Of a stretch of 33,192 nt of DNA, positions 11,352-32,427 are shown piece after piece (positions within the stretch are counted from its first letter, which is position 1; every line of letters begins with the position of its first letter). The notes beneath the pieces were generated by a model. It was not told the DNA's origin and ran no database searches. It saw nothing but the letters and a program-made list of their open reading frames with translations. The DNA comes from a virus, in the IMG/VR virus record IMGVR_UViG_3300025704_001231, positions 1 through 33,192 of that record. The stretch is one strand, 5' to 3'. The position numbers and the translations under genes are program-made.

Positions 11352-11421
11352 TTATTAGTTTAGTACTTGGATATTTAGCTAAATATTTTTAACAAATAAT
11401 AAAAGCTGAGAGGTATTTGCT
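11352..11421. promoter_or_regulatory. divergent intergenic region with 16-bp perfect palindrome
   Basis: The 70-base gap between divergent genes holds ATATTTAGCTAAATAT (11371-11386), a perfect 16-bp palindrome. It presents GCTAAATA, one change from NATAAATA, on both strands. T4 spacing from these would give starts near 11391 (+) and 11366 (-), both inside the gap. The rightward gene has GAGAGG (11408-11413) 8 bases before its GTG. It could be a symmetric two-way late promoter or a dimeric regulator site. Confidence 0.45.
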
Positions 11422-15645: not shown

Positions 15646-16307
15646 ATTATTACCTCAAATATTTCTGTAAGATTTTTCTTTAAATCAGAAATTAATTCTT
15701 TTTCAATATCAAACATTACACATTTATCATCCCATTTAAAATTTGTAATGGTTCCGTTCTTGTTAGCTCGGTTTAACCATGTACTCGTAACGGAATCAAA
15801 CTGATAACGCCAATCAGTTGCATCAGAAACTAATATAATTTTTACAGTGACGGGATTAATTAATTTGTTTTGCTTTAATAACTTTCGAACAACTAATTGT
15901 ATTCTATCTATGCGCCCTGTGTTGACTGCACTATGAACAGGTCCGGCATCCATGTCTTGCCAATAGTGAGAGTAAGTTTGCGGATATATTGTGTTAAGCT
16001 CGGTATACAGCACAAAGGATTTCTCACCTTGAATATTAAAATGATACCTATCATCAATATCTGCATGAGAACGATATGCTTGCCCAGGTTCGAGTTTTAT
16101 TAATCTTGCTTCGCCTATATTATCCGGCAAATATCCTAATAGTTTATCCCAAACAGTTTCTTTAAATTCGTCTTTTATAATCCACGGATCATAGAAAAAA
16201 TCACCTGTAGGAACATTTACAGGTAATTTAAACTCTATATCAACGCTTGCAGACTTTAGTTGCTGTAATATCAAGTCGTCTACTTTAAAGGACGTTTGTG
16301 CTATCAT
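15639..16307 (-). CDS. 2OG-Fe(II) oxygenase-like, aspartyl hydroxylase type
   Basis: 222 residues. LIKLEPGQAYRSHADID (69-85) carries His81 and Asp83; DAGPVHSAVN gives His125; Arg135 (RIDRIQLVV) fits the 2-oxoglutarate site. A C-terminal extension of about 80 residues has no motif I know. The ATG at 16307 has no visible Shine-Dalgarno. A minus-strand TATAAATA ends six bases before it, which would place transcription start on the ATG itself. Either the message is leaderless, or the octamer is fortuitous, or a later non-ATG start (e.g. a TTG near codon 12) is used. Confidence 0.68.
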   Translation of the reverse strand: MIAQTSFKVDDLILQQLKSASVDIEFKLPVNVPTGDFFYDPWIIKDEFKETVWDKLLGYLPDNIGEARLIKLEPGQAYRSHADIDDRYHFNIQGEKSFVLYTELNTIYPQTYSHYWQDMDAGPVHSAVNTGRIDRIQLVVRKLLKQNKLINPVTVKIILVSDATDWRYQFDSVTSTWLNRANKNGTITNFKWDDKCVMFDIEKELISDLKKNLTEIFEVIIC

Positions 16308-16312
16308 ATATG

Positions 16313-16320
16313 TATTTATA
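16313..16320 (-). promoter_or_regulatory. T4-type late octamer TATAAATA on the minus strand
   Basis: The minus strand reads TATAAATACATATATG, a perfect octamer directly ahead of the leftward oxygenase gene in a 33-base divergent gap. With T4 spacing, the +1 coincides with the A of the ATG at 16307. Sequence match is exact; use in vivo is inferred. Confidence 0.5.
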
Positions 16321-16340
16321 TACGTACTTTATTGATAAGT

Positions 16341-16976
16341 ATGTATATGAGCATAATAGAACAAGCAGAAGCAATTTTACGTAAAGACATTGGATGGATT
16401 GAGCTCGATTTAGATATCGATATAGCTGCTTGGAAGGAAGAAGCAGCTATTGCATATGACTATATGGTATATCATCGAGAAGGTGAGAATCATAAAGGAT
16501 GGCGCAGTTGTGCAATACACGGTGTTGCAACTAACATAACTGCACACGTAGAAGATACTAATTTTAAATGGACTGAATTAAGTAAGCTAACTCCTACTAT
16601 TACAGAATTTTGGAAGCAATTTCCAAGTGAACGGTTTGGTCGTGTTAGGTTCATGGATTTAGAACCAGGTGGATGGGTAGGAGAACATAATGATTCTCCT
16701 AACGGTTTAAACAATACGCAAATTAACATTATGGATCATATTGTTCCTATTAATATTGCTATTAATCATCCTAACAACTGTGTAATGAACATCGGCAGTA
16801 ATCAAGTTCCGTGGGCAGACGGGAAGGCATTTTTAGTAAACATTACCAAAAATCATTCTGTTCAAAATAATTCAACTCAGAATAGACTGCACCTTATTGC
16901 ACACTGTATGATAGGCTCTATGAAAAAAGAGTTTGCAAATTTAGTCGTCAGAAGTTATAATAAAACTAATGATTAA
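16341..16976 (+). CDS. 2OG-Fe(II) oxygenase-like, aspartyl/asparaginyl hydroxylase type
   Basis: 211 residues from the ATG at 16341 (a second in-frame ATG lies at 16347; ribosome site weak, perhaps GATAAG). Extending upstream would run into the divergent gene. RFMDLEPGGWVGEHNDSP (103-120) holds His116 and Asp118. VPINIAINHP (135-144), the distal His172 (KNHSVQNNS) and Arg182 (QNRLHLIAH) complete a typical aspartyl/asparaginyl beta-hydroxylase-type core. It heads the rightward operon that continues into three radical SAM genes, with an 8-base ATGATTAA overlap to the next gene. Confidence 0.75.
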   Translation: MYMSIIEQAEAILRKDIGWIELDLDIDIAAWKEEAAIAYDYMVYHREGENHKGWRSCAIHGVATNITAHVEDTNFKWTELSKLTPTITEFWKQFPSERFGRVRFMDLEPGGWVGEHNDSPNGLNNTQINIMDHIVPINIAINHPNNCVMNIGSNQVPWADGKAFLVNITKNHSVQNNSTQNRLHLIAHCMIGSMKKEFANLVVRSYNKTND

Positions 16977-18129
16977 TTTCTTCGAAAATAATAAAGATAT
17001 TCTATACTGTTTTGTAGACAATACCAGCAGTTATGGTTCTGCATGGACTAAGGAAGTAATTAAAAATATTAGCGATTATACAATTTCAAACTTGTATCAC
17101 AAAGGTCTTTCATTAGTACAATCAGAAAACGAAGATGAAATGTTGCAGTATGCTGCGGCGCAAGGATATAAACATGCACTTGTATTTTCGACCGGTACTG
17201 AATTTATAGACGGTGATAATTTTTTTATGACCGTATCCAATCTTAGTACTACTGACTATTTTATATATGGTCATATACTTGATCGCAAGGAAGCATATTA
17301 CGAGCTGCATCATCAATGTTATCTTATCAATATTGAAAAATATATAGCATTAGGATTGCCATCTATTGGTGGCGTTATGTTAGGTCATAGTGATAACTTT
17401 GTTGAGCCTGTTCGATCTGTTGATAATTTACACGACGACTATACACCGTTGTGGGTCAAGCAAGGAAAATCTTTTAAAAAATATCATCATAAATTACATG
17501 GATGGAATATTATTAATAAAGGGTTAACGCATGGCTATAGTATAGATGCTTGGTCCAAAGATGCAAGACAGCAGAAGATACATTATTATCCAGAAAATAC
17601 AAAACTGTTTAATGAAAATATAATTCAAATATATAAAAAGTATAACTATTGTCAGACAACGTTTGTTCATACAACTGGAACCGAAGACATTTATGATTTG
17701 GCAGCATATAAACAAATTGTAACTCCTGCTAGTAGCGACTGGTGGAAAAAATTCGCAAATTCAGATACTGAAATTATATTGTATGATTATAATTTACAAA
17801 GTCTTGAGTATTGGAAGGATAATACTACAGATTACAATGTAAAATATATACATTGTAATTTATTAACAGATAATTTATTAGAATATATAAATGATACAAA
17901 TTCTACTTTTGTAAATCTATCTAATATCTTTAGTTATGAAGGAACAGTTGCATTGTATAGTTTAGAACACAGGTTATCAAGAGAAAACTATTATTTAAAT
18001 AATTTAAAAGAAGCAACTGTAGTAATTACCGGAAGTGCTTCTGCAGGATTTATTAATAGACAAGGTGCTACAATTAGAGACTTGAAAAAGCCAACATGGC
18101 ATATAGGCGAATGGAATTATTATGAATAA
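16969..18129 (+). CDS. two-domain protein, glycosyltransferase-like plus methyltransferase-like
   Basis: 386 residues without a strong signature. The first ~200 (YAAAQGYKHALVFSTGTEFI, then HHQCYLINIEKYIALGLP) have a rhythm like GT-A glycosyltransferases, though no clear DxD is visible. The last ~140 (TEIILYDYNLQSLEYWKDN, then FVNLSNIFSYEG) look Rossmann-like, with an acidic strand end as in SAM methyltransferases, but lack a GxGxG loop. It sits between an oxygenase-like and a twitch radical SAM gene with 8-base overlaps on both sides. A sugar- or SAM-related role is a guess. Confidence 0.4.
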   Translation: MINFFENNKDILYCFVDNTSSYGSAWTKEVIKNISDYTISNLYHKGLSLVQSENEDEMLQYAAAQGYKHALVFSTGTEFIDGDNFFMTVSNLSTTDYFIYGHILDRKEAYYELHHQCYLINIEKYIALGLPSIGGVMLGHSDNFVEPVRSVDNLHDDYTPLWVKQGKSFKKYHHKLHGWNIINKGLTHGYSIDAWSKDARQQKIHYYPENTKLFNENIIQIYKKYNYCQTTFVHTTGTEDIYDLAAYKQIVTPASSDWWKKFANSDTEIILYDYNLQSLEYWKDNTTDYNVKYIHCNLLTDNLLEYINDTNSTFVNLSNIFSYEGTVALYSLEHRLSRENYYLNNLKEATVVITGSASAGFINRQGATIRDLKKPTWHIGEWNYYE

Positions 18130-19387
18130 ATCATGTACATTTTGTATGCATCCATTTACCGGATTAGCAACTCGAGAAGACGGTGCTATTAAAATATGCT
18201 GTCGCAGTCAACCAATTGGGTGGATACAAAAAGAAAGTTTAGAAGAAGCATGGAATAATAATGCTATGCGTGAAGTTCGTCGTCAAGTATTGAACAACGA
18301 GCGACCAGATGTGTGCAAACCGTGCTTTGACCTTGAAGATCAGGGGGTAGAGAGCTTAAGACAGCGTCATACAGCAGGGGTAATACCTGAAGCAAGGGTC
18401 AACTTGTATCCCGACGCACTTAACGCTTTAAACGAAGATTTTACAATGCCATTTGAATTTCCTACTATGGAAATTAAACTCAACAACCTGTGTAATCTAA
18501 AGTGTCGTATGTGTAATCCGTTAGACAGTACAAGTTGGAAAGACTGGGAGCAAGTTACTGAATTCTATAAAAAGGAAGATAACTATCTTATTCCTACTGT
18601 TGAAGGCTTAGTAGATAAACCAGGACAGTACATTGGTCCGTTTGATAATTCAGACAACTGGTGGGAGAGTTTTGAAAAATTATTACCGTTCTTTAGACGT
18701 GTAGAGTTTGCAGGCGGCGAACCGCTTATGGATCCCTACCATTACAAGATTTTAGACAAGTTAGCCGAGTACGGTGAGAATATCGAACTAAAGTATGCTA
18801 CAAACGGCACTAAGTTAGGTATAACAGGCGGACGTACCATACACGACTATTGGCCTAAGTTTCGTAGTATAGCTGTAAACGTAAGCATAGATGGTGTACA
18901 CGATGTCTACGAGTACATTAGAGGTAATGGAAAGTTTAGTGAAGTAGAAGAAAACATCAAAGTATTTAAAAGCTTTCCTAATGTAAGTCGTGTAGTTGGT
19001 GCATTTACTGTACAAGCAAATAACATAATGCAAATTGACAAGGTTATTGATTACTTTATTAACGAATTAGGGATTATATTTTATTCGCATAGAGTAAACT
19101 ATCCTATGAGTCTAAGTGCGCAAGTATTACCCCCTGAATTAAAAACAAAAGTAGTAGCACGTTTAGAACAAATGAAAACAGAAGTGTTAGAATACCCGTT
19201 AGTAAAACAACATAAACTATTAGAAACAGTAACACTACAGCAAATACAAGATAACATTAATTTCTTAGAGTCAAAGTGTATGTATGCTACTCACTGGCAA
19301 GACTGTATTGAGTTTAACAAGCGTTTAGATAAAACTCGCGGGCAAGACTTCCTTACAGCTAATCCAGAGTTTATTCCTTATGTTTAA
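18122..19387 (+). CDS. radical SAM protein with N-terminal twitch domain (cassette 1, twitch)
   Basis: 421 residues. The N-terminal twitch-type module offers Cys8 (CMHPF), Cys26-Cys27 (IKICC) and Cys65/Cys68 (CKPC) for an auxiliary iron-sulfur cluster. The radical SAM core has CNLKCRMC (Cys124, 128, 131) and a GGEP SAM-binding motif near 198. This matches the class of radical SAM proteins with the twitch domain ahead of the barrel. Such enzymes often modify peptides or carbohydrates; the substrate is unknown. It is first of a twitch/SPASM/SPASM trio that is repeated in inverted form at 27045-23656. It is coupled by 8-base overlaps on both sides. Confidence 0.88.
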   Translation: MNKSCTFCMHPFTGLATREDGAIKICCRSQPIGWIQKESLEEAWNNNAMREVRRQVLNNERPDVCKPCFDLEDQGVESLRQRHTAGVIPEARVNLYPDALNALNEDFTMPFEFPTMEIKLNNLCNLKCRMCNPLDSTSWKDWEQVTEFYKKEDNYLIPTVEGLVDKPGQYIGPFDNSDNWWESFEKLLPFFRRVEFAGGEPLMDPYHYKILDKLAEYGENIELKYATNGTKLGITGGRTIHDYWPKFRSIAVNVSIDGVHDVYEYIRGNGKFSEVEENIKVFKSFPNVSRVVGAFTVQANNIMQIDKVIDYFINELGIIFYSHRVNYPMSLSAQVLPPELKTKVVARLEQMKTEVLEYPLVKQHKLLETVTLQQIQDNINFLESKCMYATHWQDCIEFNKRLDKTRGQDFLTANPEFIPYV

Positions 19388-20294
19388 AGTAGAGAGTCGT
19401 TGGGGACATCAAGACAGTATTCATGTCGAATGGAATATTGGAAAGCGTTGTAATTTAGATTGCGCTTATTGTCCTGCGGAAATACACGACAACTTTAGCC
19501 CACATACTGATTTAGATGTTATGGTTAACACAATCTATGAATTAGAAAAGATAGGAAAGCCTATACGTCTAAGTTTAACAGGCGGCGAGCCTACTGTACA
19601 TCCTAAAATTAACGACATACTCGAATGTGCAAGAGCAAGATTGCAATGGCTTAGTGTTACAACTAACGGGTTACGTTCTCCAGATTGGTATATTAAACAA
19701 CCAGTAAATCAGTGGGTGTTTAGTTTGCATTTTGATAACGAACATAGTCAACGAGCTGCCGAAAACATTGTTAGATATTCGCAATTGCTGGATATGGAAG
19801 GTATGTCTACTTTGTTTCAAGTTAATTTAATGGCACATCACGAACACATGGATGCTGTACGAGCAGCAGCTACGTTACTCGAAGGACATAATATTCCATA
19901 TGTGTGCAGACGTATACGATGGACTACAGCAGAGGACAGAGACTGGTTTGATGACATGCGCTATGATCCAAAAGACTTAGAATGGATATTAAGTAAGACT
20001 GCAACAGTAAAGGCAAACTGTGTTGTAGACAATGAACATAAGCTACATGCTAACGACATTATTAAACACAAGTGGAATCAGTTTGAAGGATGGAATTGTA
20101 ATGCTGGCTTAGAGAGTCTTATGATTAATTGGGACGGCGAAGTGCATCGTGCTACTTGCAGGGTCGGCGGTAGTTTAGGAAACATCTACAAAGGAACATT
20201 TAATCAACCTGTAAAGTCAATTATATGCACACGTAAATTCTGTACATGTGTTGCAGATATTTCATTAACAAAGGTATCAGATGTTAACAACTAA
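19380..20294 (+). CDS. radical SAM/SPASM-like protein (cassette 1, type A)
   Basis: 304 residues. CNLDCAYC (Cys24, 28, 31) and TGGEP (67-71) define the radical SAM core. The C-terminal quarter carries GWNCNAG, a Cys in ATCRVGG, then ICTRKFCTC, consistent with a SPASM-type auxiliary iron-sulfur domain. Gene order and C-terminal pattern match the leftward gene at 24692 (GWECNLG, then ICTKYICGC), so the two are paralogues. SPASM enzymes commonly act on peptides, but also on sugars. It overlaps the upstream gene by 8 and the downstream gene by 14 bases. Confidence 0.86.
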   Translation: MFKVESRWGHQDSIHVEWNIGKRCNLDCAYCPAEIHDNFSPHTDLDVMVNTIYELEKIGKPIRLSLTGGEPTVHPKINDILECARARLQWLSVTTNGLRSPDWYIKQPVNQWVFSLHFDNEHSQRAAENIVRYSQLLDMEGMSTLFQVNLMAHHEHMDAVRAAATLLEGHNIPYVCRRIRWTTAEDRDWFDDMRYDPKDLEWILSKTATVKANCVVDNEHKLHANDIIKHKWNQFEGWNCNAGLESLMINWDGEVHRATCRVGGSLGNIYKGTFNQPVKSIICTRKFCTCVADISLTKVSDVNN

Positions 20295-21306
20295 TGCAAT
20301 AAGATTGTCTAATCCAGAACGCCTTATGGTTACATGGGATACTGGACGCAGGTGCAATTTTGATTGCACTTACTGCGAAGCAACACGACACGATAATAAA
20401 AGTGCCCCGCATAGTTATGAAGAGCTACTACATACATTTGAATTTATAAAAAAATACACAGGTGAGCAATTAGTTAACATAAACTTTACAGGTGGTGAAC
20501 CTACAGTTAATCCAGCGTTTTGGCAATTAGCAGAATATATACACACTAATGAAACACGCTTTAGACTTAGTTTAACTACTAACGGTGCATGGCATCCTAA
20601 AAATACAGACCGTATTGCAAAATGGTTCGAAGGTGTTACAGTAAGCTATCACGCCGAAGGACATGCAATACTTAAAAAACAAACTATGGACAATATTAAA
20701 CTGTTACATAGTTTAGGAATTTGGTTGCAAGTTAATGTAATGATGCACGTTGACTACTTTGACGAATGTAAGCAAGTATGCGCAGAGTTAAAAGAGTTAG
20801 GTGTTAAGCATAATCCACGCCCTATAGGAGATGGCAACATTGAACGCAAGGGATGGTTTACTGATTCCGACGGGTCGCAAAGACGAACTAGTCACGATTA
20901 CAACAAAGAACAAACACAATGGTATTTTGAATACTTAGGCATTACAAGTCCTAAAGAAGGACGCAATTGCTGTGGCGGAAGATGTGTACAGGGAAAAGTA
21001 GACGGCAAATGGCAAGATGTAAACTTTATTGATACAAACTTTAAAGGATGGTTTTGCAGCGTTAACAAGTACTTCTTACACATAGATCAACACACAGGCG
21101 ATGTGTATCATCATCAGACGTGTCAAGCACTACACGACGGTCTTAGAGGGCCTCTCGGTAACTTAAATAATACAGATGCTATATTTGATTATGTTAAGAC
21201 AAATAAAGATAAAACAATTGTTTGTCCTAATAATAGATGCGGATGCGGAATGTGTGTACCAAAAGCAAAAGACTTAACTGAATATAAAATTATACTAAAG
21301 CTTTAG
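20281..21306 (+). CDS. radical SAM/SPASM-like protein (cassette 1, type B)
   Basis: 341 residues with CNFDCTYC (Cys25, 29, 32) and TGGEP (70-74). The C-terminal part is Cys-rich: NCCGGRC, KGWFCSV, QTCQALHDG, GPLGNLNNT, then CPNNRCGCGMCVPKA. Nearly every one of these patches recurs in the same order in the leftward gene at 23656, a clear paralogue. It probably holds one or two auxiliary clusters. It is last in the rightward operon; its final 12 bases overlap the converging twitch radical SAM gene. Substrate unknown. Confidence 0.87.
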   Translation: MLTTNAIRLSNPERLMVTWDTGRRCNFDCTYCEATRHDNKSAPHSYEELLHTFEFIKKYTGEQLVNINFTGGEPTVNPAFWQLAEYIHTNETRFRLSLTTNGAWHPKNTDRIAKWFEGVTVSYHAEGHAILKKQTMDNIKLLHSLGIWLQVNVMMHVDYFDECKQVCAELKELGVKHNPRPIGDGNIERKGWFTDSDGSQRRTSHDYNKEQTQWYFEYLGITSPKEGRNCCGGRCVQGKVDGKWQDVNFIDTNFKGWFCSVNKYFLHIDQHTGDVYHHQTCQALHDGLRGPLGNLNNTDAIFDYVKTNKDKTIVCPNNRCGCGMCVPKAKDLTEYKIILKL

Positions 21307-22410
21307 TATTTCTGCCATAATAGGGAATAACTTGCTAAACTTTTGATTCCTAAGTTTATCAACTTTATCAATAATTTTATTTCTAATGTCATTAATGTAT
21401 TCTAAATTAACTTCTCTAAATTGTGTAGTTAGATATTGTTTAATTTGATTATCGATGTAATTATCTGTTAAATGCTCTACTATTTTATCTTTATCCTGCT
21501 GTGATAATACCGAGATATCATAATAATCAGGGTCTCTAACAAAATTTACAAAAATATTAGAGTGGGGTATTCCGATACTATCACACCACTCTAAGAATAA
21601 CTGGCCTGATAAACAATTATGGATACTAACTGTATATATTAAACTTACTTTTAAATAATCGTGTTTTAAAATGTCTTTAAAATTATTTTCTACTTTGCTA
21701 AATTTAATCGGATAGCGTTGATATGTAAATCGATCATCTATATCATCAATAGAGTACATTAGTTCTACACTTTTAAATTGTTTAAAATATTCCAATATTT
21801 TTTCTGGAATCTTTACACTACCATTGGTAATAATTCTAAGTGTAATATCTTTTGCTTTATTTTGTTCTATGCACTGTTGTATAAATTGGAAATTTTCTTT
21901 AACTAATAATGGTTCGCCGCCGCTTATATAAAAAGTTTCTAACGTATTAATAAATCCTTCGAGCTCTTTCCATCTATCTAAATTGTAGATCCATTTACCT
22001 GATTGCCCTTTATTATTAGGGCGTCCAAAAATAATTGTCTCTTCTTTTTCCCATAGGCGACTATTATTACTGTCGCAAATACGACACTTCATATTACAAA
22101 TATTACTAAATTTTAAATCTAATTTAATAGGAACAGGTGTAGTAATATTCGAACATTTAGTATTTTCTTGTTGTCGACGACTTTCAATGCTGGCTGCTTC
22201 TTGTGTAAAACATTTCTTACATCCTTCTGGTGCAATATTATTAGTAAACTGATCTCGTAGTTCTTGAAATTGTTCGTTATTAAATGTATCTAAAAAACTA
22301 TTATCATTTATATTACCCACAAATCCATTGTACTCACAACACGGGCGCACTTTTCCAGTAGTTCCGATTTCCATTTGAGTGAATGGAACAACACAAAAGT
22401 TATCTTTCAT
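21295..22410 (-). CDS. radical SAM protein with N-terminal twitch domain
   Basis: 371 residues. Twitch cysteines are Cys6 (FCVVPF), Cys24-Cys25 (RPCC) and Cys64/Cys67 (CKKC). The core has CNMKCRIC (Cys105, 109, 112) and SGGEP (163-167). The C-terminus ends in a short helical segment like its paralogues (KFSKLFPIMAE). It is the last gene of the eight-gene leftward operon, entered by an ATGA overlap. It converges with the rightward type B gene. This copy is shorter than the twitch genes at 18122 and 25657, mainly between the twitch and core. Confidence 0.86.
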   Translation of the reverse strand: MKDNFCVVPFTQMEIGTTGKVRPCCEYNGFVGNINDNSFLDTFNNEQFQELRDQFTNNIAPEGCKKCFTQEAASIESRRQQENTKCSNITTPVPIKLDLKFSNICNMKCRICDSNNSRLWEKEETIIFGRPNNKGQSGKWIYNLDRWKELEGFINTLETFYISGGEPLLVKENFQFIQQCIEQNKAKDITLRIITNGSVKIPEKILEYFKQFKSVELMYSIDDIDDRFTYQRYPIKFSKVENNFKDILKHDYLKVSLIYTVSIHNCLSGQLFLEWCDSIGIPHSNIFVNFVRDPDYYDISVLSQQDKDKIVEHLTDNYIDNQIKQYLTTQFREVNLEYINDIRNKIIDKVDKLRNQKFSKLFPIMAEILKL

Positions 22411-23663
22411 ATTACATGATCCTTAAATATAAAATCGTACTCAGGAAAAGTTTTTAGAAAGTCTTTTTTTCGTCTGTGATCGTACTCTTTAATAAACATT
22501 CTTAATGAATTAATATCTTTATCCTTTTGTTCATCAAACAATGCAATAACATGTTTAAATCTATCTACAGACTCACTGTTAAAATTCTTTCTTAAATATT
22601 CAAGAGATTCAATTAATTTATAACGCCATTCTAAAGGGGCAACAGAAGGAGATAAAAAGCTCGGTGCTCTAACTGAAGTAACACTTAGTTCAACTCGTTT
22701 ATATTCTTTTTTAATTTCTACTACATCTTTAAGAAATATTGTAAAGCTAGAAATAGAAAGAACATTATATGCACACATTAAATTTAATTGGATCTTCGGC
22801 AACTGTATTAACACTTTGCGACAATTATCTAACCAATCATTATAATGTAATCCGTCACGAATGTATTCTGCTTGTATGCCGTGTGCTTCTCCACTGGTTG
22901 CAATTTCAATCTTTTTAACATAGTTTTCAACTGTTTTTAATTTATTAATAAATTTATCTAATAATGCTGTAGGAACTCCTAGATTCGTATTAAATATTAA
23001 AGTTAGGTCTTTGTTAGGATTTTCAATAATATAATTTAAGAACTGTTCAGTATATCTACTCATTAAAGGTTCGCCGCCGGTAAGGCGTAAAACTTTTAAA
23101 TTTTTATATATCGTAGGAAGATATTTCCAAAATGCTTCGATGTAAGGATTATGTTCTTTATCTGGATATTGTACATGACTGATAGCATTATATCCATTAA
23201 CATATGGCCCTGAAGATTTAATTTCACTAACCCATTTGCTACTAAGTGTAGGACCGCAATATGCACATGCAAAATTACAAACGTTTGAAAAACTAATTTC
23301 TAAATATGACGGAACAACATCATCAGTACTGTTGACAGTGTTTATCTCTTTCATTCCTCCAAACTTTTGACTCATTAGCACTCTGTCACTATATTCTCCA
23401 GTATCCTCAATCCTCCAGCAATATTCACAATCTTTAGGACGCTTGCCTTCTAACATTTCTTTTCTAACAGACTTTTTATACAAAGTGTTATGTAGTGCTG
23501 CTGGATTATTTTCTATTTCTTCTAAAGGAATTTTATGAGGTGACGGATGGTGACAGCTATGAGTTAATCCTTGTCCCAGATAAATGTGACTTTGTGTCCA
23601 CTTTGCCATGCACATACTGGGGCTAATAGAGTTTAATTTTCTCTGTGTGTTCCATTTAAACAT
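22407..23663 (-). CDS. radical SAM protein with atypical N-terminal twitch domain
   Basis: 418 residues. The core is clear: CNFACAYC (Cys129, 133, 136) and TGGEP (195-199). In the twitch module Cys18 and CEYC (Cys79/82) are kept, but the adjacent Cys-Cys pair of the paralogues is replaced by SCHH (36-39). One ligand is therefore lost or changed to His, so the auxiliary cluster may differ. The end (RRKKDFLKTFPEYD) is the family's usual C-terminal helix. It is coupled to neighbours by 8- and 4-base overlaps in the leftward operon. Confidence 0.85.
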   Translation of the reverse strand: MFKWNTQRKLNSISPSMCMAKWTQSHIYLGQGLTHSCHHPSPHKIPLEEIENNPAALHNTLYKKSVRKEMLEGKRPKDCEYCWRIEDTGEYSDRVLMSQKFGGMKEINTVNSTDDVVPSYLEISFSNVCNFACAYCGPTLSSKWVSEIKSSGPYVNGYNAISHVQYPDKEHNPYIEAFWKYLPTIYKNLKVLRLTGGEPLMSRYTEQFLNYIIENPNKDLTLIFNTNLGVPTALLDKFINKLKTVENYVKKIEIATSGEAHGIQAEYIRDGLHYNDWLDNCRKVLIQLPKIQLNLMCAYNVLSISSFTIFLKDVVEIKKEYKRVELSVTSVRAPSFLSPSVAPLEWRYKLIESLEYLRKNFNSESVDRFKHVIALFDEQKDKDINSLRMFIKEYDHRRKKDFLKTFPEYDFIFKDHVI

Positions 23664-24699
23664 GCTTTAACATAATCCTATCATAGTCTTCTTTATGTTG
23701 TGCCTTAGGAGCACAAAGTCCGCACCAGCAACTTGACTTCTTACAAATAATTGTGTTTGTATTACTTTTGAGTTTATTTAATATTGCTGTAGTATTTGAC
23801 AAATTACCAAGGGGTCCAACTTGACCATCTAAATTCATACGACAATCTTTATTAGTAAACACTTCACCGGTAGTTTGTCTAATATATAAAAAGTTTTTAT
23901 CTACACTACAATGCCAGCCTTTAAATTTGTTTTCAACTCGTTGAGTGCTACTTGTAACATTAGTACACATTTCGTTACCACCGCAACATTCTCTACTTTG
24001 TGCCGATAAATCTACGCCGCCCGTAATAACTGCTTTTGCCATCTGCATTACCGAAGCAGGCCGTTGTCCAGTAATATAATGTATTTGTTCTTTTGTGTAG
24101 TTAAATCTAAAATCTGCCCAGTGATGGTCGATTTGGCGAATAAGATACTTTACGTTGTTTTCTTTACACCATTCAACCATGTAAACGCAAGTATCCCAAT
24201 GTTTAGGATGCATTAATATACTAACATGAAAGGTTTTACCTTGTGATTTAAGAAATAAAATATTTTTACGTACAAGCTCTTGCTGAGAAAAACTCGACTC
24301 TGAATGAAAGCTCACTGTAAAAAAGCTTATTAGTGGTACTAATTTCTGCCATACTTTTTCTTTCACAACTGCATTAGTAATTGTGTTTATTTGTAACTCC
24401 CAGTCGAGCTTATCTACACGACTATTTGCATATGTTAGTATTTCAATAATTTTAGGATGAAATAAACTTTCGCCGCCTTGTACATTAAGTCCTGCTCTTT
24501 TATCTTTACGTGTTTCCATTATAATGGAAACATAATCAATAATAAAATCAATAGTACTAAGATTATCTAATAAATCTGGATGTGGTTGCTTATTGTCATG
24601 GCCGTCGCCGCAATAACTACAATCAAGATTACATTTAAGAGTACTTTCCCATGCTATTTGAAACGATGACGGATTAACTGGTTCTAATGTGTTAAACAT
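23656..24699 (-). CDS. radical SAM/SPASM-like protein (cassette 2, type B)
   Basis: 347 residues with CNLDCSYC (Cys23, 27, 30) and QGGES (74-78), Ser replacing the usual Pro. The C-terminal half repeats the landmarks of the rightward type B gene: ECCGGNEMC, KGWHCSV, KDCRMNLDG, GPLGNLSNT, then CKKSSCWCGLCAPKA. This makes it the paralogue of 20281. It is the third gene of the inverted cassette and is linked by ATGTTTAA overlaps at both ends. Likely carries auxiliary iron-sulfur clusters; substrate unknown. Confidence 0.87.
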   Translation of the reverse strand: MFNTLEPVNPSSFQIAWESTLKCNLDCSYCGDGHDNKQPHPDLLDNLSTIDFIIDYVSIIMETRKDKRAGLNVQGGESLFHPKIIEILTYANSRVDKLDWELQINTITNAVVKEKVWQKLVPLISFFTVSFHSESSFSQQELVRKNILFLKSQGKTFHVSILMHPKHWDTCVYMVEWCKENNVKYLIRQIDHHWADFRFNYTKEQIHYITGQRPASVMQMAKAVITGGVDLSAQSRECCGGNEMCTNVTSSTQRVENKFKGWHCSVDKNFLYIRQTTGEVFTNKDCRMNLDGQVGPLGNLSNTTAILNKLKSNTNTIICKKSSCWCGLCAPKAQHKEDYDRIMLKHV

Positions 24700-25660
24700 T
24701 TAGTTTCCTTTTATTACATACTATTTCTTCGTTGCAGCCGCAAATATATTTAGTGCATATAACAGGAACAATTTTAGGACTAAAAGTTTCAGTAAAGTTT
24801 TGATTATATAAATTATGTCCAGTGAATAAGGTCTGTTGACAATTTCCTGTAATACTTCCGTTTGGAAAAATTTTAATCAAGTCAACGCCAAGATTACATT
24901 CCCAACCCTTGAAATAATTTAAATTATTTCTAGTTAACCAACTATCGCTATTAACTGTAAAGGCTGTTCCATCATCTTTTGTGATTTCAACCTGAGTTAG
25001 TGATTTCTTTGTTGTAGTATCGTACCATTCTTGAGTAGGATAACGTTTAATGCTTTCATCGAAATAAGCTAATTGCTGGTCATTGTATCTATGAGCTCCA
25101 TTAAAGTGAACAACCTTGGCAATTATAGGCCAACTGTGTTTGCTATTTTGTTTTAACCATTCTACGTTAGCTACACTACCATCGAAATCATCTGGATCTA
25201 TAAGTACATCTGCATTAACGAATACACCCTCTTCATATAATACATCGCACACATCTCTTATATGAGATAGATTAACAAACTCTCTGTGTACACTAATGCC
25301 TACATGATCAAAATTCTTTGCATGTTCTTTCCACCAGTTTAGTTTGCGTGTACCATTAGTACTCATTTCAATAATTATATCAAAATTTTCTTTAAGGTAT
25401 ACGCAAAGTTCTTCAAGTCCTTTCCACAATGTAGGTTCACCGCCTACAAAGAAGATATCACTCTTTGTTTTACCTTGAGACTCATAATGTTTTAATAGAT
25501 GTCCAAGATTTTGTTTTACTATTTCAACATCTGGCCAAGGCATGTTACCTTCATTACTGCCCGGAAAACAATAATGACATTTATGATTGCATAGATTTCC
25601 AGGCATGTATTCTATGCGCAACATTGCAGGATCTTGATTATTTTTAATTTCTTTGATCAT
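24692..25660 (-). CDS. radical SAM/SPASM-like protein (cassette 2, type A)
   Basis: 322 residues with CNHKCHYC (Cys24, 28, 31) and VGGEP (72-76). C-terminal GWECNLG, GNCQQ and ICTKYICGC parallel the rightward type A gene at 19380, and the gene occupies the same position in its trio. The segment around 200-240 (residues WYDTT to WLTRNN) is specific to this copy. It overlaps the twitch gene above by 4 bases and the type B gene below by 8. Probably acts with those two. Confidence 0.86.
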   Translation of the reverse strand: MIKEIKNNQDPAMLRIEYMPGNLCNHKCHYCFPGSNEGNMPWPDVEIVKQNLGHLLKHYESQGKTKSDIFFVGGEPTLWKGLEELCVYLKENFDIIIEMSTNGTRKLNWWKEHAKNFDHVGISVHREFVNLSHIRDVCDVLYEEGVFVNADVLIDPDDFDGSVANVEWLKQNSKHSWPIIAKVVHFNGAHRYNDQQLAYFDESIKRYPTQEWYDTTTKKSLTQVEITKDDGTAFTVNSDSWLTRNNLNYFKGWECNLGVDLIKIFPNGSITGNCQQTLFTGHNLYNQNFTETFSPKIVPVICTKYICGCNEEIVCNKRKLNV

Positions 25661-27045
25661 AACAAGTGAGCAAGTTCCGGAAATACTGTGGCTGCATTTA
25701 ATCCACGAATTTTGTCAAGTTTGTTTGTGTACTCTTTAAAACCTGGAAGTAAATGACTATTATCTTCTGCATTCATATGATTTAATACTGCTTCCCATCG
25801 TTTCCAGCCATAAGGATTATGTATCCAAAAATCATCATCCTGTCTATAGTTTTTCCATAGCCAATCTTTAAATTCCATAAAGCGTTCTTTAACTTCTTGC
25901 TTGTCCTCTTTAGGCAATATCTGTATGCTTAGGAATGTTGGAATGTAAAGCAAGTGCATATTAACTAGGCCGCCGCCCATTTGTACACCACCCGGAACTA
26001 TTCCGCTGTTTAGCTTTTTAAATCCGCTTTCTAGTTTCCACTTCATAAAGTCCGGTAAGTGCTTTACATTGAATATTTGTATTGCTGTTGCTAAACTTGT
26101 TTGTATATTGTCAGGCGTGTTATCTAACATATGCAAAGTCTTTTCTACAGTATTCCAATCTGTAGGATAGCGAATATACTCGTCACGTTCGTGACTAGCA
26201 TCCATACTTACTGCAAACTTAACTTTTTTAAACTTACTCCACATCTCGATTAGATCTTCGTCTACAAGTAAACCATTCGAATTGTAACGAAGTAGTATCT
26301 TATCTTGGTACCCTTGGCGCAGTATTTCTTCAATAAACATTTTGTGTTCTTTAATCATTAGAGGTTCGCCTCCAGCAAAGTACACTTGTCTTAGGTTAGG
26401 AATCTGTGCATACATTTCTTCCCAGAATGTATCTTTCTCATGCCACTTGTTATTAAAGTCTTTTCGATCCCATTGCATTTGTCTTTTTACTTCAGGATCT
26501 TGTAGTACAGGAATTAACTTTTTATGATCAGCTACCCACTTACTCGAATCATGCGGACTGCACATTACACACTTAATATTGCAAGTATGTCCTAAGCGTA
26601 GATCTAAATATTTTAAATCTTCTGGCACTGTGCCATCTTCTTTTGTTTGGCGAATAAGTTCAGGAATATCCACGCCATTGTCATCCTGATGCCATGTGCC
26701 TGTCTCCCAAATACGCTTACTTACAATGCCTTGTTTTTCTTCTTGAAAACACTTTGTGCAGCTTGCAGGAATCTCGCCGTTAAGCATAGTTGTACGGACA
26801 CTTTTCATGTAATCGTTATTCCATGCTTCCATAGGAGTTTCACGACCAAAGTTAGCTGCTTTACCGTTTTCCATTTTAACAAGCCCTACTTCGTGATCGT
26901 TGCCTGCGCCGCTGGCATTAGCACTACAGCATAATCTCATATCACCGTTTGGTCTTGTAGCAAAGTGTATCCACGGCAGTACACAGAATGTAGGCGTACC
27001 AGCTACTTGTTCTATTTGAGCTCGATACTTTTCTAAATCAGACAT
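25657..27045 (-). CDS. radical SAM protein with N-terminal twitch domain (cassette 2, twitch)
   Basis: 462 residues, the longest radical SAM protein of the twitch type here. Twitch cysteines are Cys21 (FCVLPW), Cys39-Cys40 (RLCC) and Cys96/Cys99 (CTKC). The core has CNIKCVMC (Cys155, 159, 162) and AGGEP (224-228). Extra length lies in the twitch module (45-70) and in a Gly/Met-rich stretch (VPGGVQMGGGLVNMHLLY, about 345). It occupies the first place of the inverted trio, equivalent to 18122 on the other strand. It overlaps the PP-loop gene above by 8 bases (ATGTCTGA) and the type A gene below by 4. Confidence 0.88.
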   Translation of the reverse strand: MSDLEKYRAQIEQVAGTPTFCVLPWIHFATRPNGDMRLCCSANASGAGNDHEVGLVKMENGKAANFGRETPMEAWNNDYMKSVRTTMLNGEIPASCTKCFQEEKQGIVSKRIWETGTWHQDDNGVDIPELIRQTKEDGTVPEDLKYLDLRLGHTCNIKCVMCSPHDSSKWVADHKKLIPVLQDPEVKRQMQWDRKDFNNKWHEKDTFWEEMYAQIPNLRQVYFAGGEPLMIKEHKMFIEEILRQGYQDKILLRYNSNGLLVDEDLIEMWSKFKKVKFAVSMDASHERDEYIRYPTDWNTVEKTLHMLDNTPDNIQTSLATAIQIFNVKHLPDFMKWKLESGFKKLNSGIVPGGVQMGGGLVNMHLLYIPTFLSIQILPKEDKQEVKERFMEFKDWLWKNYRQDDDFWIHNPYGWKRWEAVLNHMNAEDNSHLLPGFKEYTNKLDKIRGLNAATVFPELAHLL

Positions 27046-27745
27046 TATTCTTTTCCTTTGCCCAGTTACGTTCTTGACACCAAAAACATTCGCCGCATTC
27101 AGGCACTTCTTGTCCAGGTATATAATTAGTATAATCTAAGTTTGCAAAGTTACCTTCACAACTGCGTGTAATATTTAAGAGATCTAATATATTGTTCTCA
27201 ACATACTGGGCAATTATTACATCCTTTTCTGTATATAAAAACGGATGACATACTGTTACTCCGTTGTGTTCTTTAACAAGTTCATTAGGATCTTCAACTA
27301 CAATATCTCTGTCGGGCATACCTTTAGTTATTGTAGGATCGCTAGGATTTTTAGTTTTGCCAGCATACCATGCTTGTAGTTTTTCTGTAGCTGCAATCCA
27401 TTCTGCATGAGCTCTTACAATAATTTGATCTCCGCTGCGAGTTTGTCCATATTCATCAATAATATATGCACCGTTGTCGCCGTATTCTAAATCAGGCGGA
27501 ATAAAGTTTTCATGTCTTACAAATTCTATATGAGGAAATCGCTTAACTAACCAATCATAAACACCTATACTATCATAACGTTGCCAAGGGCGTGTCTTCC
27601 ACATGCGCACATGACTTAGAATATGAACATTAGTATTTGTTATCTTTGAACATAATAAGTATGCAAGTAGTGCGCTATCAGCGCCGCCGCTTAGACTTAT
27701 ACCAATGTTTTTCCAACTGCTATCAAAAGGAATATCAACTAACAT
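27038..27745 (-). CDS. PP-loop ATPase, QueC/asparagine-synthase-like
   Basis: 235 residues. The N-type ATP-pyrophosphatase loop is ISLSGGADSALL (16-27). The C-terminus carries Cys196 (RSCEGN) and CGECFWC (Cys217, 220, 223), the four-Cys zinc arrangement typical of QueC-like enzymes. Such proteins adenylate a carboxylate or carbonyl to make a nitrile, amide or thio product. The central Asp/Pro-rich insertion (about 85-160) differs from standard QueC. No QueD, QueE, FolE or DNA transglycosylase gene is visible here, so 7-deazaguanine synthesis is not supported locally. It lies inside the radical SAM operon and may activate their substrate. Confidence 0.75.
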   Translation of the reverse strand: MLVDIPFDSSWKNIGISLSGGADSALLAYLLCSKITNTNVHILSHVRMWKTRPWQRYDSIGVYDWLVKRFPHIEFVRHENFIPPDLEYGDNGAYIIDEYGQTRSGDQIIVRAHAEWIAATEKLQAWYAGKTKNPSDPTITKGMPDRDIVVEDPNELVKEHNGVTVCHPFLYTEKDVIIAQYVENNILDLLNITRSCEGNFANLDYTNYIPGQEVPECGECFWCQERNWAKEKNNV

Positions 27746-28396: not shown

Positions 28397-29482
28397 TTAC
28401 AACTTTACCCTTTGAACAATTTGTTCTGTAGGTTTTGAAAACTGTTTTACTTTTGATTTACCACAAGTCTTAGCACAAACCAACAACTGTTTCTTTGACC
28501 ATTTATCTTGCCATACATTTTGCCAAGCAGGCGAATCAATAATATCCTTGGTATGATGCTTAGTTAAATCAAGTGCGTCAGTGGAGCCAAAATACTTTAT
28601 TACAGTATTGTACTCGTCAATTGCTCTAAGTTTTAATTGATGTATCACACTGGAAGGTTCGTTATGATTATAAGGAGTTGATGCTAAGAAACAGCATGGC
28701 CAAATCATACGATGTGCATCCATATAAATTTCTTTATGTTTGTCAACATAACAATCTACTTCAACAGTGCCAAGCCATGTGTCTACATTATTGACAATAT
28801 CTTTAGATATAAATTGTATTTCATTATTACTTGGAGGTTCTAAATGATAAATTACATTTCCGTCTTTATCATATACATCAAATTTACCGTCTGTTAAAAA
28901 TCTTGAACTATTCTTAACACTAAATCGTTGGAAACCTAAATCTTTAGCAAGTTGCTGAGCCTCTTCTACTTGATGCTCGTTATGCTTGAACTTAATAAAC
29001 ACCCATTCTGCAATTCCGCCGGCGTTAATAAAAGCCTGAGCATTTTTTAAAATTTGATTAAAATTAGTACCGATACGATAAATGCTATGTGTATCAGCAA
29101 GCCCGTCAAGCGCAAATACAACAACATGATCTTTGGGCAATTTAGTAGGTAAATTAGACCACCAGTCTAACGACCGTGCGCTGCCGTTAGTGTGTATACG
29201 CACACTCATGCTTGGACTATTAACTGTTAGATGCTCACACATTTCTGCAAGATCATTGTTAATAATAGGATCGCCAAAATTGCCACAGAAGTACACTCCC
29301 GATAGTTGATTAACAAGGGTACTATCAAATATAGCTACAAACTCGTCAAGTGTCCAATCATTTAATTTTAAATTTGGATTTTCGAGGCCGCCGTGATAGT
29401 TTCTGCTACACATTGGACAACTTGCTTGACATCGTGTTGTAATTTCTAAATGTATTTGTTTAAGATCTTCAAATGGAAACAT
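28397..29482 (-). CDS. radical SAM protein with SPASM-like C-terminus
   Basis: 361 residues. CQASCPMC (Cys18, 22, 25) marks the cluster. The SAM-contact motif reads CGNFGDP (66-72) in place of GGE/GGEP, so this protein belongs to a separate branch from the others. The C-terminal part has VDCYVDKHKEIYMDA, IWPCCFLAS and LVCAKTCGK, consistent with a SPASM-type auxiliary cluster. It is the first gene of the leftward operon, starting at 29482, opposite the rightward twitch gene. The 50-base divergent gap holds the late octamer for the other strand; I see none for this gene. Confidence 0.84.
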   Translation of the reverse strand: MFPFEDLKQIHLEITTRCQASCPMCSRNYHGGLENPNLKLNDWTLDEFVAIFDSTLVNQLSGVYFCGNFGDPIINNDLAEMCEHLTVNSPSMSVRIHTNGSARSLDWWSNLPTKLPKDHVVVFALDGLADTHSIYRIGTNFNQILKNAQAFINAGGIAEWVFIKFKHNEHQVEEAQQLAKDLGFQRFSVKNSSRFLTDGKFDVYDKDGNVIYHLEPPSNNEIQFISKDIVNNVDTWLGTVEVDCYVDKHKEIYMDAHRMIWPCCFLASTPYNHNEPSSVIHQLKLRAIDEYNTVIKYFGSTDALDLTKHHTKDIIDSPAWQNVWQDKWSKKQLLVCAKTCGKSKVKQFSKPTEQIVQRVKL

Positions 29483-29498
29483 TATTATCTACTCATAT

Positions 29499-29506
29499 TA
29501 TAAATA
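29499..29506 (+). promoter_or_regulatory. T4-type late promoter, TATAAATA
   Basis: A perfect TATAAATA followed by CTATT, matching the extended T4 late consensus TATAAATACTATT. It lies 26 bases before the ATG at 29533 in the divergent gap. Predicted start is near 29512. GAGAGG (29519-29524) gives the ribosome site. The octamer's AATAC (29503-29507) could pair with GTATT (29528-29532) around that site in longer transcripts, but the stem is only 5 bp. Confidence 0.8.
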
Positions 29507-29532
29507 CTATTTACATAAGAGAGGCCCGTATT

Positions 29533-30816
29533 ATGCACAAAAGCGAAAGTACATTTTGCAAAATTCCCTTCAATCATATTAACTCGTCTCCAAACGGACA
29601 CTATAAGTTATGCTGTGCCGGTTATCCAGTAATTCTACACAAAGGAGAATATTTTTCTATTCTTGAAGTAGGTATAGAAGAAATGTGGAATCATGAATAT
29701 TACAAAACGCTACGTATGGATTTAATCAACGGAGTGCGTAATAGTAATTGTAATAACTGTTGGAAAATTGAAGATGCAGGAGGGTTTTCGTATAGGCAGA
29801 AATCTTTAAAAGATGTATTACTTGACGAAAGTATAGTAGAAGAAGTATATAAAAATAATGGTTACAATAAACAGATGCCAAAGTTTATTGATTTAAAAAT
29901 TGGCAATTTATGTAATTTAAAATGTGTAATGTGTAACCAGATTGCTAGTAGTAAAATCGAAGATGAAGTTCGTGTATTAAAAATTCAAGGAGAAAAACTT
30001 CCAGCGTGGCAAAATTTTATAGAAATCGAAGCAGAAAAAGTCGATGAAAGTTTAAGAAACTTTGCAGGATTAGCAAATTCTGATAATGCACAAAAGATTG
30101 TAGAACAACTGAGACCAGCATTAGAAGTATGCGAAGACCTTGAGTTACTTGGCGGAGAAACATTTGTTAATCCGTTTGCTATTAAATTATTACAACACTT
30201 AATTGATTCCAACTTAGCTAAAAATATTCATATTAAGATGATTTCAAATTTTACATTACTGAATAAAAAGCAGTTAGCATTATTAAAGAATTTTAAAAAA
30301 GCAACATTAGTTGCAAGTTATGATCATATTGATGCAGAAAAATTAAAAGCAATTAGGTTTCCAACAGACTATACTGTCTTTAAAAAGAATTTTGATCTTG
30401 TCTTTAATGATCCTAATATTGACTTAGACATATCAACAACATTTTCTGTATTAAATATTTTAGATTTTGAAGAAATATTTGATGAGTTTAAACGTATATA
30501 TAAGGACAACATGCGTATCGGATTCAACTTTGTTACTGAGCCGGAATATTTAGATATAAAATTTTTAGAAGAATCGCAAAAACAAGAACTAATACAAAAG
30601 ATATTTGAATATACCAAAAAAAACAAAAATCATCCTATGTTTGTAAACAATCAAGCTACACTTGCATATTTACATTCAATCGAAAGTAATCTTTACGGTG
30701 ATTTAACTGATTTTGATGCACAAGTAAAAGAACGTACACGAGTATTTGATTTATATAAAAAGGTACGTGGCACAGATTTTAAAGAAATTTTTCCATGGTT
30801 AAAGGAATATAGATGA
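29533..30816 (+). CDS. radical SAM protein with N-terminal twitch domain
   Basis: 427 residues from the ATG at 29533, chosen because the late promoter (29499-29506) and GAGAGG (29519-29524) lie just upstream; an in-frame ATG at 29473 would precede the promoter and overlap the divergent gene. Twitch cysteines are Cys9 (FCKIPF), Cys27-Cys28 (KLCC) and Cys73/Cys76 (CNNC). The core has CNLKCVMC (Cys127, 131, 134) and LGGET (206-210), Thr replacing Pro. It is followed by two tandem oxygenase-like genes, the first with a 4-base overlap, forming a separate rightward set. Confidence 0.88.
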   Translation: MHKSESTFCKIPFNHINSSPNGHYKLCCAGYPVILHKGEYFSILEVGIEEMWNHEYYKTLRMDLINGVRNSNCNNCWKIEDAGGFSYRQKSLKDVLLDESIVEEVYKNNGYNKQMPKFIDLKIGNLCNLKCVMCNQIASSKIEDEVRVLKIQGEKLPAWQNFIEIEAEKVDESLRNFAGLANSDNAQKIVEQLRPALEVCEDLELLGGETFVNPFAIKLLQHLIDSNLAKNIHIKMISNFTLLNKKQLALLKNFKKATLVASYDHIDAEKLKAIRFPTDYTVFKKNFDLVFNDPNIDLDISTTFSVLNILDFEEIFDEFKRIYKDNMRIGFNFVTEPEYLDIKFLEESQKQELIQKIFEYTKKNKNHPMFVNNQATLAYLHSIESNLYGDLTDFDAQVKERTRVFDLYKKVRGTDFKEIFPWLKEYR

Positions 30817-31316
30817 ATTATATTGGAAATTTTGCAGAGTGGATTGACTCAAGTTGGGTTAATGAAGTATCTGCTAATCGAGGAACTGCGAGACCGAGTG
30901 AAGGTAAACGTCCCGATAGTCCCGAAGAAGAATTAGAGTATGCAAAAGCACGAGCAGCGGGATATAAAGACGACGATACTTTCTTTTATATGTTTACTAA
31001 AAACAATACTAGTTTTGATATTGTAGCACCGTTTATTAACGGCAAGTATCATTGGTGGATTACTAAAATGCTTCCTGGAAATTTTATGCCAGTGCATGTT
31101 GACCCACATGCAATATTTCAAAAAAATAGCAAACGCTATTGGATGCCTTGGCAAGACTACGAACCTGGACACTTGTTCTTATACGAAGAACAAGTAATTA
31201 CTAACTACAAAAAAGGCGACTTGTACGAATATGCAAACTCGTCTGCTATACACGGTGCTTCAAATATCGGTCATTCACCGCGTATAGTTTTACAAATAAG
31301 TACATTTGAGGATTAA
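30813..31316 (+). CDS. 2OG-Fe(II) oxygenase-like, tandem copy 1
   Basis: 167 residues. Candidate iron ligands are His95 and Asp97 (MPVHVDPH) and His147 (SAIHGASNIG), with Arg157 for 2-oxoglutarate. The stretches KRYWMP, DYEPGH, NYKKGD and a final IHGASNIG recur nearly unchanged in the next gene, so the pair arose by tandem duplication. A Lys/Arg/Glu-rich region (23-55) precedes the core. It is coupled to the twitch radical SAM gene by ATGA. Likely a small-molecule or peptide hydroxylase; substrate unknown. Confidence 0.75.
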   Translation: MNYIGNFAEWIDSSWVNEVSANRGTARPSEGKRPDSPEEELEYAKARAAGYKDDDTFFYMFTKNNTSFDIVAPFINGKYHWWITKMLPGNFMPVHVDPHAIFQKNSKRYWMPWQDYEPGHLFLYEEQVITNYKKGDLYEYANSSAIHGASNIGHSPRIVLQISTFED

Positions 31317-31317
31317 T

Positions 31318-31830
31318 ATGATTTTTTTAGGAAATTACGCAGATTGCATTAAGCAAGAATGGATAGACGAAGTTTTAAAAAGTGATGGTGATGCGTACCC
31401 TCGAGAACACAGACCAGAAAGTGCAGAAATGGCTGCGCAATGGGCTGCTGCGGAATCTCGAGGTTATGATCGAAACGCTAAGTATCATTCAAGGCACGAT
31501 GACTGGAATACGAGCTTTAGTTTTAGGCCACCGTGGATCGCTGAAAATGAAGTATGTGATTGGTGGATTGTAAAAATGTATCCAGGTGAACTGTTTCCTA
31601 TGCATGTAGACTCAGGTGCAGTATACCACAAGACAGATAGTAAACGTTATTGGATGCCGTTAATGGATTACGAGCCGGGCCATATTTTTATGTACGAAAA
31701 AGAAGTATATACAGATTATAAAAAAGGCGATGTATATCAATTTGAAAATAAATCTGCACTGCACGGATCTGTAAATATCGGATTTACTGCACGGATAGCA
31801 CTACAAGCAACTTCATTTTTACCTGATTGA
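31318..31830 (+). CDS. 2OG-Fe(II) oxygenase-like, tandem copy 2
   Basis: 170 residues from the ATG at 31318, which follows the previous stop by one base and has GAGG (31308-31311) upstream; an ATG at 31306 would lie inside that gene. Ligand candidates are His96 and Asp98 (FPMHVDSG), His149 (SALHGSVNIG) and Arg159. The shared KRYWMP, DYEPGH and DYKKGD segments make it the sister of the preceding gene, clearly diverged at the N-terminus. Its end overlaps the converging methyltransferase-like gene by 12 bases. Confidence 0.75.
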   Translation: MIFLGNYADCIKQEWIDEVLKSDGDAYPREHRPESAEMAAQWAAAESRGYDRNAKYHSRHDDWNTSFSFRPPWIAENEVCDWWIVKMYPGELFPMHVDSGAVYHKTDSKRYWMPLMDYEPGHIFMYEKEVYTDYKKGDVYQFENKSALHGSVNIGFTARIALQATSFLPD

Positions 31831-32427
31831 TTTTTTCTTTCCAATTATCATATAACGAGTATACTTAGGTGTTTCAAACTCGCCTCGCCAATAGGGTTTA
31901 ATATTACTCATACGCATAAAGTCGTCTAAGTCTGTTGCGCAGCGGATATGTTCTTCTAACTCAAAGTAGTTATTGCTTTGTATTACATATAGTGCATCGT
32001 CCGGCTGATTGTTTAACCACTGCTCGTATTGCTCTTGCGTAACATGTTCGCAACTTGTGTTGATTACAATGTCAGCAGGTTCTGTGTAGGCGCACATGTC
32101 TGCTGTTACTGCATCAAACCTTCCTGCTATTTCATAGTTTTTATTAACTGTGTATGCAATTTCTTGACAGTCTTCGTCAATGTCTACACTTGTAATGTGT
32201 TGTATACTGAGCCTGCTGTTAAACAATATGCTTGCAAGTACTCCGTTCCACCCTCCATAGATTGCAATACGAGCATCATCGCCTACATAGTTTACACGTA
32301 ATGCATCAGCAAGCCATACTTTACTGTTGACTTGTCCTTTCCAAAAACTTTCTAATGTACGATAACGGTCATCGCTGTTACGAATTGCATCCATCCAAAA
32401 TAGTACGTCCTGTATATCAACCTTCAT
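31819..32427 (-). CDS. class I SAM-dependent methyltransferase-like protein
   Basis: 202 residues. A Rossmann-type motif I is seen as RIAIYGGWNGVLASIL (53-68), and the strand-2 acidic end as ITSVDIDEDCQ (78-88). A later INTSCEHV takes the position of motif IV. The usual GxGxG is modified to GGWNG, so cofactor binding is likely but not certain. Substrate class cannot be told. It overlaps the SGNH gene above by 11 bases and converges on the oxygenase pair. Confidence 0.7.
   Translation of the reverse strand: MKVDIQDVLFWMDAIRNSDDRYRTLESFWKGQVNSKVWLADALRVNYVGDDARIAIYGGWNGVLASILFNSRLSIQHITSVDIDEDCQEIAYTVNKNYEIAGRFDAVTADMCAYTEPADIVINTSCEHVTQEQYEQWLNNQPDDALYVIQSNNYFELEEHIRCATDLDDFMRMSNIKPYWRGEFETPKYTRYMIIGKKKSIR

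Follow-up and report, generated by a model that had tools for sequence, protein, structure and literature searches.

Two facing sets of radical SAM genes form the centre of a conserved module in a plastic region of large T4-like phages. The recurring core of this module is a twitch gene, T1, with its SPASM-like neighbour, A1, facing a second twitch gene, T2, usually with a SPASM-like neighbour of its own, A2. The window analysed here (the whole stretch of DNA, a 33-kb IMG/VR virus record of 33,192 nucleotides) contains 11 radical SAM genes (PF04055) in total. A sequence-only reading had placed in it, on opposite strands, two sets of one twitch and two SPASM-type genes (A and B) in the same order; the two sets are real, and all six open reading frames lie where they had been placed. 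That reading missed that the - strand set extends past B2 into two further twitch genes, T4 and then T3, so that the arms meet tail to tail near 21300. The module genes and associated genes of the window are:

7906 to 9402, + strand: R0, radical SAM protein with B12 binding, also within the plastic region (PF02310 and PF04055)
16296 to 16976, + strand: AAH, aspartyl/asparaginyl beta-hydroxylase-like 2OG oxygenase (PF05118, E 1e-15)
16969 to 18129, + strand: h23, unknown protein accompanying AAH
18122 to 19387, + strand: T1, N-twitch radical SAM enzyme (NF033640, 325 bits)
19380 to 20294, + strand: A1, SPASM-like radical SAM enzyme that always accompanies T1
20281 to 21306, + strand: B1, SPASM-like radical SAM enzyme, optional
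21295 to 22410, - strand: T3, N-twitch radical SAM enzyme (NF033640, 292 bits)
22407 to 23663, - strand: T4, N-twitch radical SAM enzyme (NF033640, 320 bits)
23656 to 24699, - strand: B2, SPASM-like radical SAM enzyme, optional
24692 to 25660, - strand: A2, SPASM-like radical SAM enzyme that usually accompanies T2
25657 to 27045, - strand: T2, N-twitch radical SAM enzyme (NF033640, 400 bits)
27038 to 27745, - strand: PPl, PP-loop ATPase-like protein; its Cys motif is QueC-like
28397 to 29482, - strand: S, T2-arm radical SAM enzyme
29473 to 30816, + strand: T5, N-twitch radical SAM enzyme, rare (NF033640, 290 bits)
31819 to 32427, - strand: MT, T2-arm protein with a weak likeness to methyltransferases

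The end of the window comes soon after MT, and the module genes D and G are absent from it; in a close relative, contig L011, they come after MT. L011 is also the only one of the first 103 contigs with a close relative of T5 (75%). Two gene pairs elsewhere in the window were noted in passing: h36 and h37 (30813-31830), which are adjacent and by eye resemble tandem copies of one 2OG-oxygenase-like protein, and two fatty-acid-desaturase-like genes on opposite strands (9991-12189), both of which match phrog_35201.

The five twitch proteins, T1-T5, encoded inside 13 kb, all belong to the N_Twi_rSAM family NF033640, membership being defined by a full-length match above the curated cut-off of 170 bits, which each passes over nearly its full length. 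All 18 T proteins that were aligned keep the catalytic CxxxCxxC motif and the N-terminal twitch cysteines without exception, and T1 shows 60-94% identity over 27 aligned homologues. The family takes its name from a domain and not from a reaction; here two of its members face each other in a fixed layout that includes SPASM-like partners. The A and B proteins do not match the Pfam SPASM domain (PF13186) at E 0.001, at which they match only PF04055 (plus Fer4_12 in B1); PF13186 matches instead the N-termini of T1, T2, T3, and T5. The label "SPASM" for A and B does not come from Pfam; the predicted fold of A1 (AF2 model, pLDDT 88), for which the nearest solved structures are mostly SPASM/twitch enzymes, supports it tentatively. 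The fold matches include BlsE, CteB, MoaA, EpeE, and BtrN (12-18% identity, rmsd 6-8 Å), which resemble A1 in fold but do not share its operon type. The substrates of these enzymes are sugars, nucleotides, or peptides. The core and C-terminal cysteines of A1 are kept in 41 homologues. A fold search with T2 gave matches mainly to the radical SAM core. Viperin (NF038283, cut-off 180 bits) was considered and rejected, the best match being B1 with 53 bits, in the core region only.

Within the window, the corresponding T and B genes are each other's reciprocal best matches (T1-T2, 28% identity, E 2e-43; B1-B2, 30% identity, E 3e-48), and both similarities are beyond chance. Similarity between A1 and A2 (21% identity, E 3e-12) is also beyond chance, yet this is the weakest of the three pairs, and A1 matches B2 (E 8e-21) and B1 (E 2e-19) better than it matches A2. 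The motifs that had been reported as shared are all found, CCGG, KGWxCSV, DGxxGPLGNLxNT, and CxCGxCxPKA in the B proteins and GWxCN and ICTxxxCxC in the A proteins.

Scans of viral contigs gave 206 matches for T1, 214 matches for T2, 65 loci for B1, and 61 loci for B2; T1 and T2 are thus each present in more than 200 contigs of IMG/VR. Layouts were counted in the best 80 T1 loci of the 206 matches; these were picked by T1 similarity and were not dereplicated, and the counts therefore describe that clade only. T2 lies downstream on the opposite strand in 78 of these 80 loci, and in the other two (L210 and L287) the available sequence stops before T2. A1 adjoins T1 or is one gene off in 80/80 loci, with the end of T1 and the start of A1 overlapping or abutting in 63/78, and A2 lies no more than two genes from T2 in 55/78. 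The commonest arrangement, T1 A1 | A2 T2, accounts for 32 of the 80 loci. B1 is present in 23 and B2 in 12 of the best 80 T1 loci, and the complete six-gene set in 11, so that the trio is an elaboration of the core. The expectation that the trio would recur as a unit is thus borne out for the facing layout, which recurs in many phage contigs, but not for B1 and B2, which are missing from most loci. Within six genes beyond T2, S is found in 62/78, MT in 71/78, and D, another A/B-like radical SAM gene, in 57/78 phage loci. The extended layout is T1-A1 facing (A2)-T2-S-MT-D-G, to which B1, B2, T3, T4, and the PP-loop gene are added in some phages. An unknown protein of ~270 aa lies between T1 and A1 in many phages (for example, L242 7909-8739 and L253 11253-12062).

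Across 35 dereplicated phages, the divergences of T1 and T2 are correlated (r = 0.47, vs. a highest value of 0.30 in 999 permutations), and the divergence of A1 tracks neither T1 nor T2. The results suggest that T1 and T2 are inherited together and that the A genes are exchanged more freely.

The carriers are large T4-like phages, known only from metagenomes. Among large contigs of window relatives, 5/8 carry gp23, and for one relative the closest gp23 sequences come from Phosso, Vibrio 2.275.O, and PA5oct-type phages; together these results identify the carriers as T4-like. Between 11 and 22 radical SAM genes lie on each of eight such contigs. The cultured-phage collection contains no close relative, and none of its phages carries the module.

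A counterpart of the module is found on bacterial chromosomes. A genome scan with T2 alone gave no matches; a scan with the T alignment gave 78 loci, most of them in Bdellovibrionota assemblies, and several of these have T2 together with S, D, MT, and G, either the whole group or the greater part of it. Example contigs are 936 kb (L308), 349 kb (L296), 328 kb (L312), and 200 kb (L297) in length. Relatives of S and MT lie near T2 on Bdellovibrionota chromosomes, and bacterial T2 occurs mostly as T2-S-D-MT-G, with no A or B directly adjoining. Relatives of T1, A1, B1, R0 (weak), AAH, and the PP-loop gene also occur in Bdellovibrionota clusters; the bacterial relatives of A1 and T1 are divergent, with long branches. 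Of nine genomes checked, eight lack gp23. In the ninth, the Gammaproteobacteria MAG MED685, gp23 lies on the same contig as the module (L290), which is therefore a T4-like phage contig; loci L384-L385 and L394-L396 (G017 contig C3) are on that same contig with gp23 and the module. Three observations concern Bdellovibrionia loci: more than 10 N-twitch radical SAM genes in ~35 kb (L382-L383, G014 contig C192); an A1-like gene split in two frames, through a real frameshift or an assembly error (L383 3833-4938); and an integrase-like gene near a radical SAM island (L298 1-570; PF00589 matched among the scanned neighbours).

According to the sequence-only reading, the two sets arose by inverted duplication of a three-gene cassette in the phage lineage, followed by divergence. 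The identical gene order in both sets is what such a duplication would leave. A local duplication of the trio is rejected by the trees for the T genes. In the final T tree (with L290 relabelled as phage and with L309, a Neisseriaceae 13-kb contig of unsure origin, not counted as bacterial), phage T2 is sister to Bdellovibrionota T2 (99/94), and T1 sits apart from them, among bacterial T1-like proteins (100/99). T3 and T4 likewise group with bacterial T3-like and T4-like proteins, respectively. A tree uniting phage T1 and T2 as one clade is rejected (AU p = 3.8e-6; p = 6e-12 with an earlier set). A single block duplication of T-A-B is accordingly not supported once bacterial homologues are included. 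In the tree of the A, B, and D genes, L290 and L344 (both from MAG MED685) still carry a bacterial label. B1 and B2 form one clade and are nearest paralogues, but bacterial B1 relatives, from Bdellovibrionota, fall on the B1 side, excluding B2 (99/93, 99/92), and a phage-only B clade is rejected at the borderline (AU p = 0.05). A1 and A2 fall, along with their relatives, to the same side of a single branch (95/82), with AU p = 0.08 for a phage-only A clade; whether the two are sisters therefore varies with where the tree is rooted. The expectation that each pair would be sisters thus stands for B1 and B2, as nearest paralogues, and falls for T1 and T2. Given also the absence of B1 and B2 from most loci, we regard an inverted duplication within the phage lineage as highly improbable.

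The T and A/B/D trees together indicate that neither arm is a recent copy of the other: the two are paralogues of long standing or were recruited separately. The T genes were most likely already old paralogues before phage T2 and bacterial T2 split. Alternatively, a T-A(-B) unit could have been duplicated in bacteria at a very early date, giving both arms, which phages later took up together; with a root between the A and B/D groups, A1/A2 and B1/B2 would be open to a reading as paired clades. Against such a history, the usual bacterial T2 layout has A and B away from T2, and T1 and T2 are set apart by many other twitch lineages of bacteria, so that we consider it unlikely.

Because T2-arm orthologues and relatives of T1, A1, B1, R0, AAH, and the PP-loop gene cluster on Bdellovibrionota chromosomes, the module is most likely a multi-enzyme pathway shared with bacteria. 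Co-occurrence of T1 and T2 and their correlated divergences across phages make the earlier proposal of one multi-enzyme process plausible. Long biosynthetic pathways are rare in phages. The target is suggested by neighbours in phages and bacteria: AAH, a weak sulfotransferase match in the window, a weakly GT2-like G (conserved DGD motif, below curated cut-off), and carbamoyltransferase and SIS domain genes in Bdellovibrionota islands point to a glycoconjugate or a protein. The AAH-h23 pair recurs in phages, and relatives of both occur in Bdellovibrionota (L382/L387), adjacent to each other in the Bdellovibrionales contig L387; h23 has no convincing Pfam family. PPl has SGGADS and CxxCFWC motifs that are invariant in 19 homologues, and in other phages its gene is usually upstream of T1. 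S has the CxxxCxxC motif and matches PF04055 with 27 bits, below the cut-off of 29.5, and MT matches PF13649 only with E 0.02, below the curated cut-off. Profile searches with PPl, G, and h23 matched no solved structure.

The best explanation of these results, to which we give somewhat less than an even chance, is a putatively borrowed multi-step pathway, common to phages and bacteria, that tailors a glycoconjugate or a protein. The evidence for the gene cluster is strong, and the chemistry proposed for it would be as follows. G would act on a glycan or glycoprotein of the surface, where it would build a sugar unit or attach one; the N-twitch and SPASM-type enzymes would use SAM-derived radicals for successive C-H modifications (oxidation, epimerisation, or decarboxylation), with T1-A1 and T2-A2 acting as two linked steps of one pathway; and decoration with methyl, hydroxyl, or activated groups would fall to MT, AAH, and the PP-loop enzyme. 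The outcome could be a change in the chemistry of the host surface or of the virion, with effects on adsorption or superinfection. In a more specific form, which we advance only tentatively, this would be an undescribed radical-SAM envelope-tailoring pathway common to Bdellovibrionota and a large uncultured T4-like phage clade, the paired N-twitch/SPASM-type enzymes being two coupled stages.

The same genes could act on a protein: the radical SAM enzymes, AAH, and G would modify in turn a tail fibre, or a pilin in bacteria, with no dedicated short precursor. The position of AAH two genes upstream of T1, its relatives in bacterial islands, the peptide substrates of many SPASM enzymes nearest to the A1 fold, and the presence of RcpC (Flp pilus assembly domain) among proteins flanking bacterial clusters are consistent with this reading; pilus proximity, however, is seen at very few loci, and no conserved small precursor ORF lies near the module, and we judge it somewhat unlikely. 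Synthesis of a modified nucleotide or natural product (of deazapurine or RiPP type) in place of envelope chemistry would accord with the QueC-like Cys motif of PPl and with weak QueE-like matches among the radical SAM genes. However, PPl of the window gives no curated QueC match (TIGR00364), matching only a weak QueC-like phrog (phrog_1550, E 3e-7), and the QueE-like matches are confined to the shared core. A search for conserved small ORFs found none recurrent within the module, and no precursor peptide was found, which argues against a RiPP pathway; synthesis of either kind of product is very unlikely.

Pelagimyophages carry radical SAM cassettes in a host-recognition cluster, a plastic region for which alteration of the host surface is the inference of the authors (PMC7029224), in agreement with the envelope role proposed here; a T4-like genome with 12 radical SAM genes has also been described (PMC5332604). 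As far as the accessible parts of these two papers show, their phages are likewise marine, T4-like, and rich in radical SAM genes, but the two-armed T-A core and its Bdellovibrionota counterpart appear in neither. In the open-access literature, we found no paper with the two-armed layout or chromosomal counterpart and none that combines radical SAM, Bdellovibrio, and SPASM. Radical SAM cassettes in such phages were already known. The presence of the module in hundreds of aquatic phage contigs and in Bdellovibrio-like chromosomes provides a defined set of genes for asking what role the many radical SAM genes of marine T4-like phages play, and its chromosomal version may be testable by deletion.
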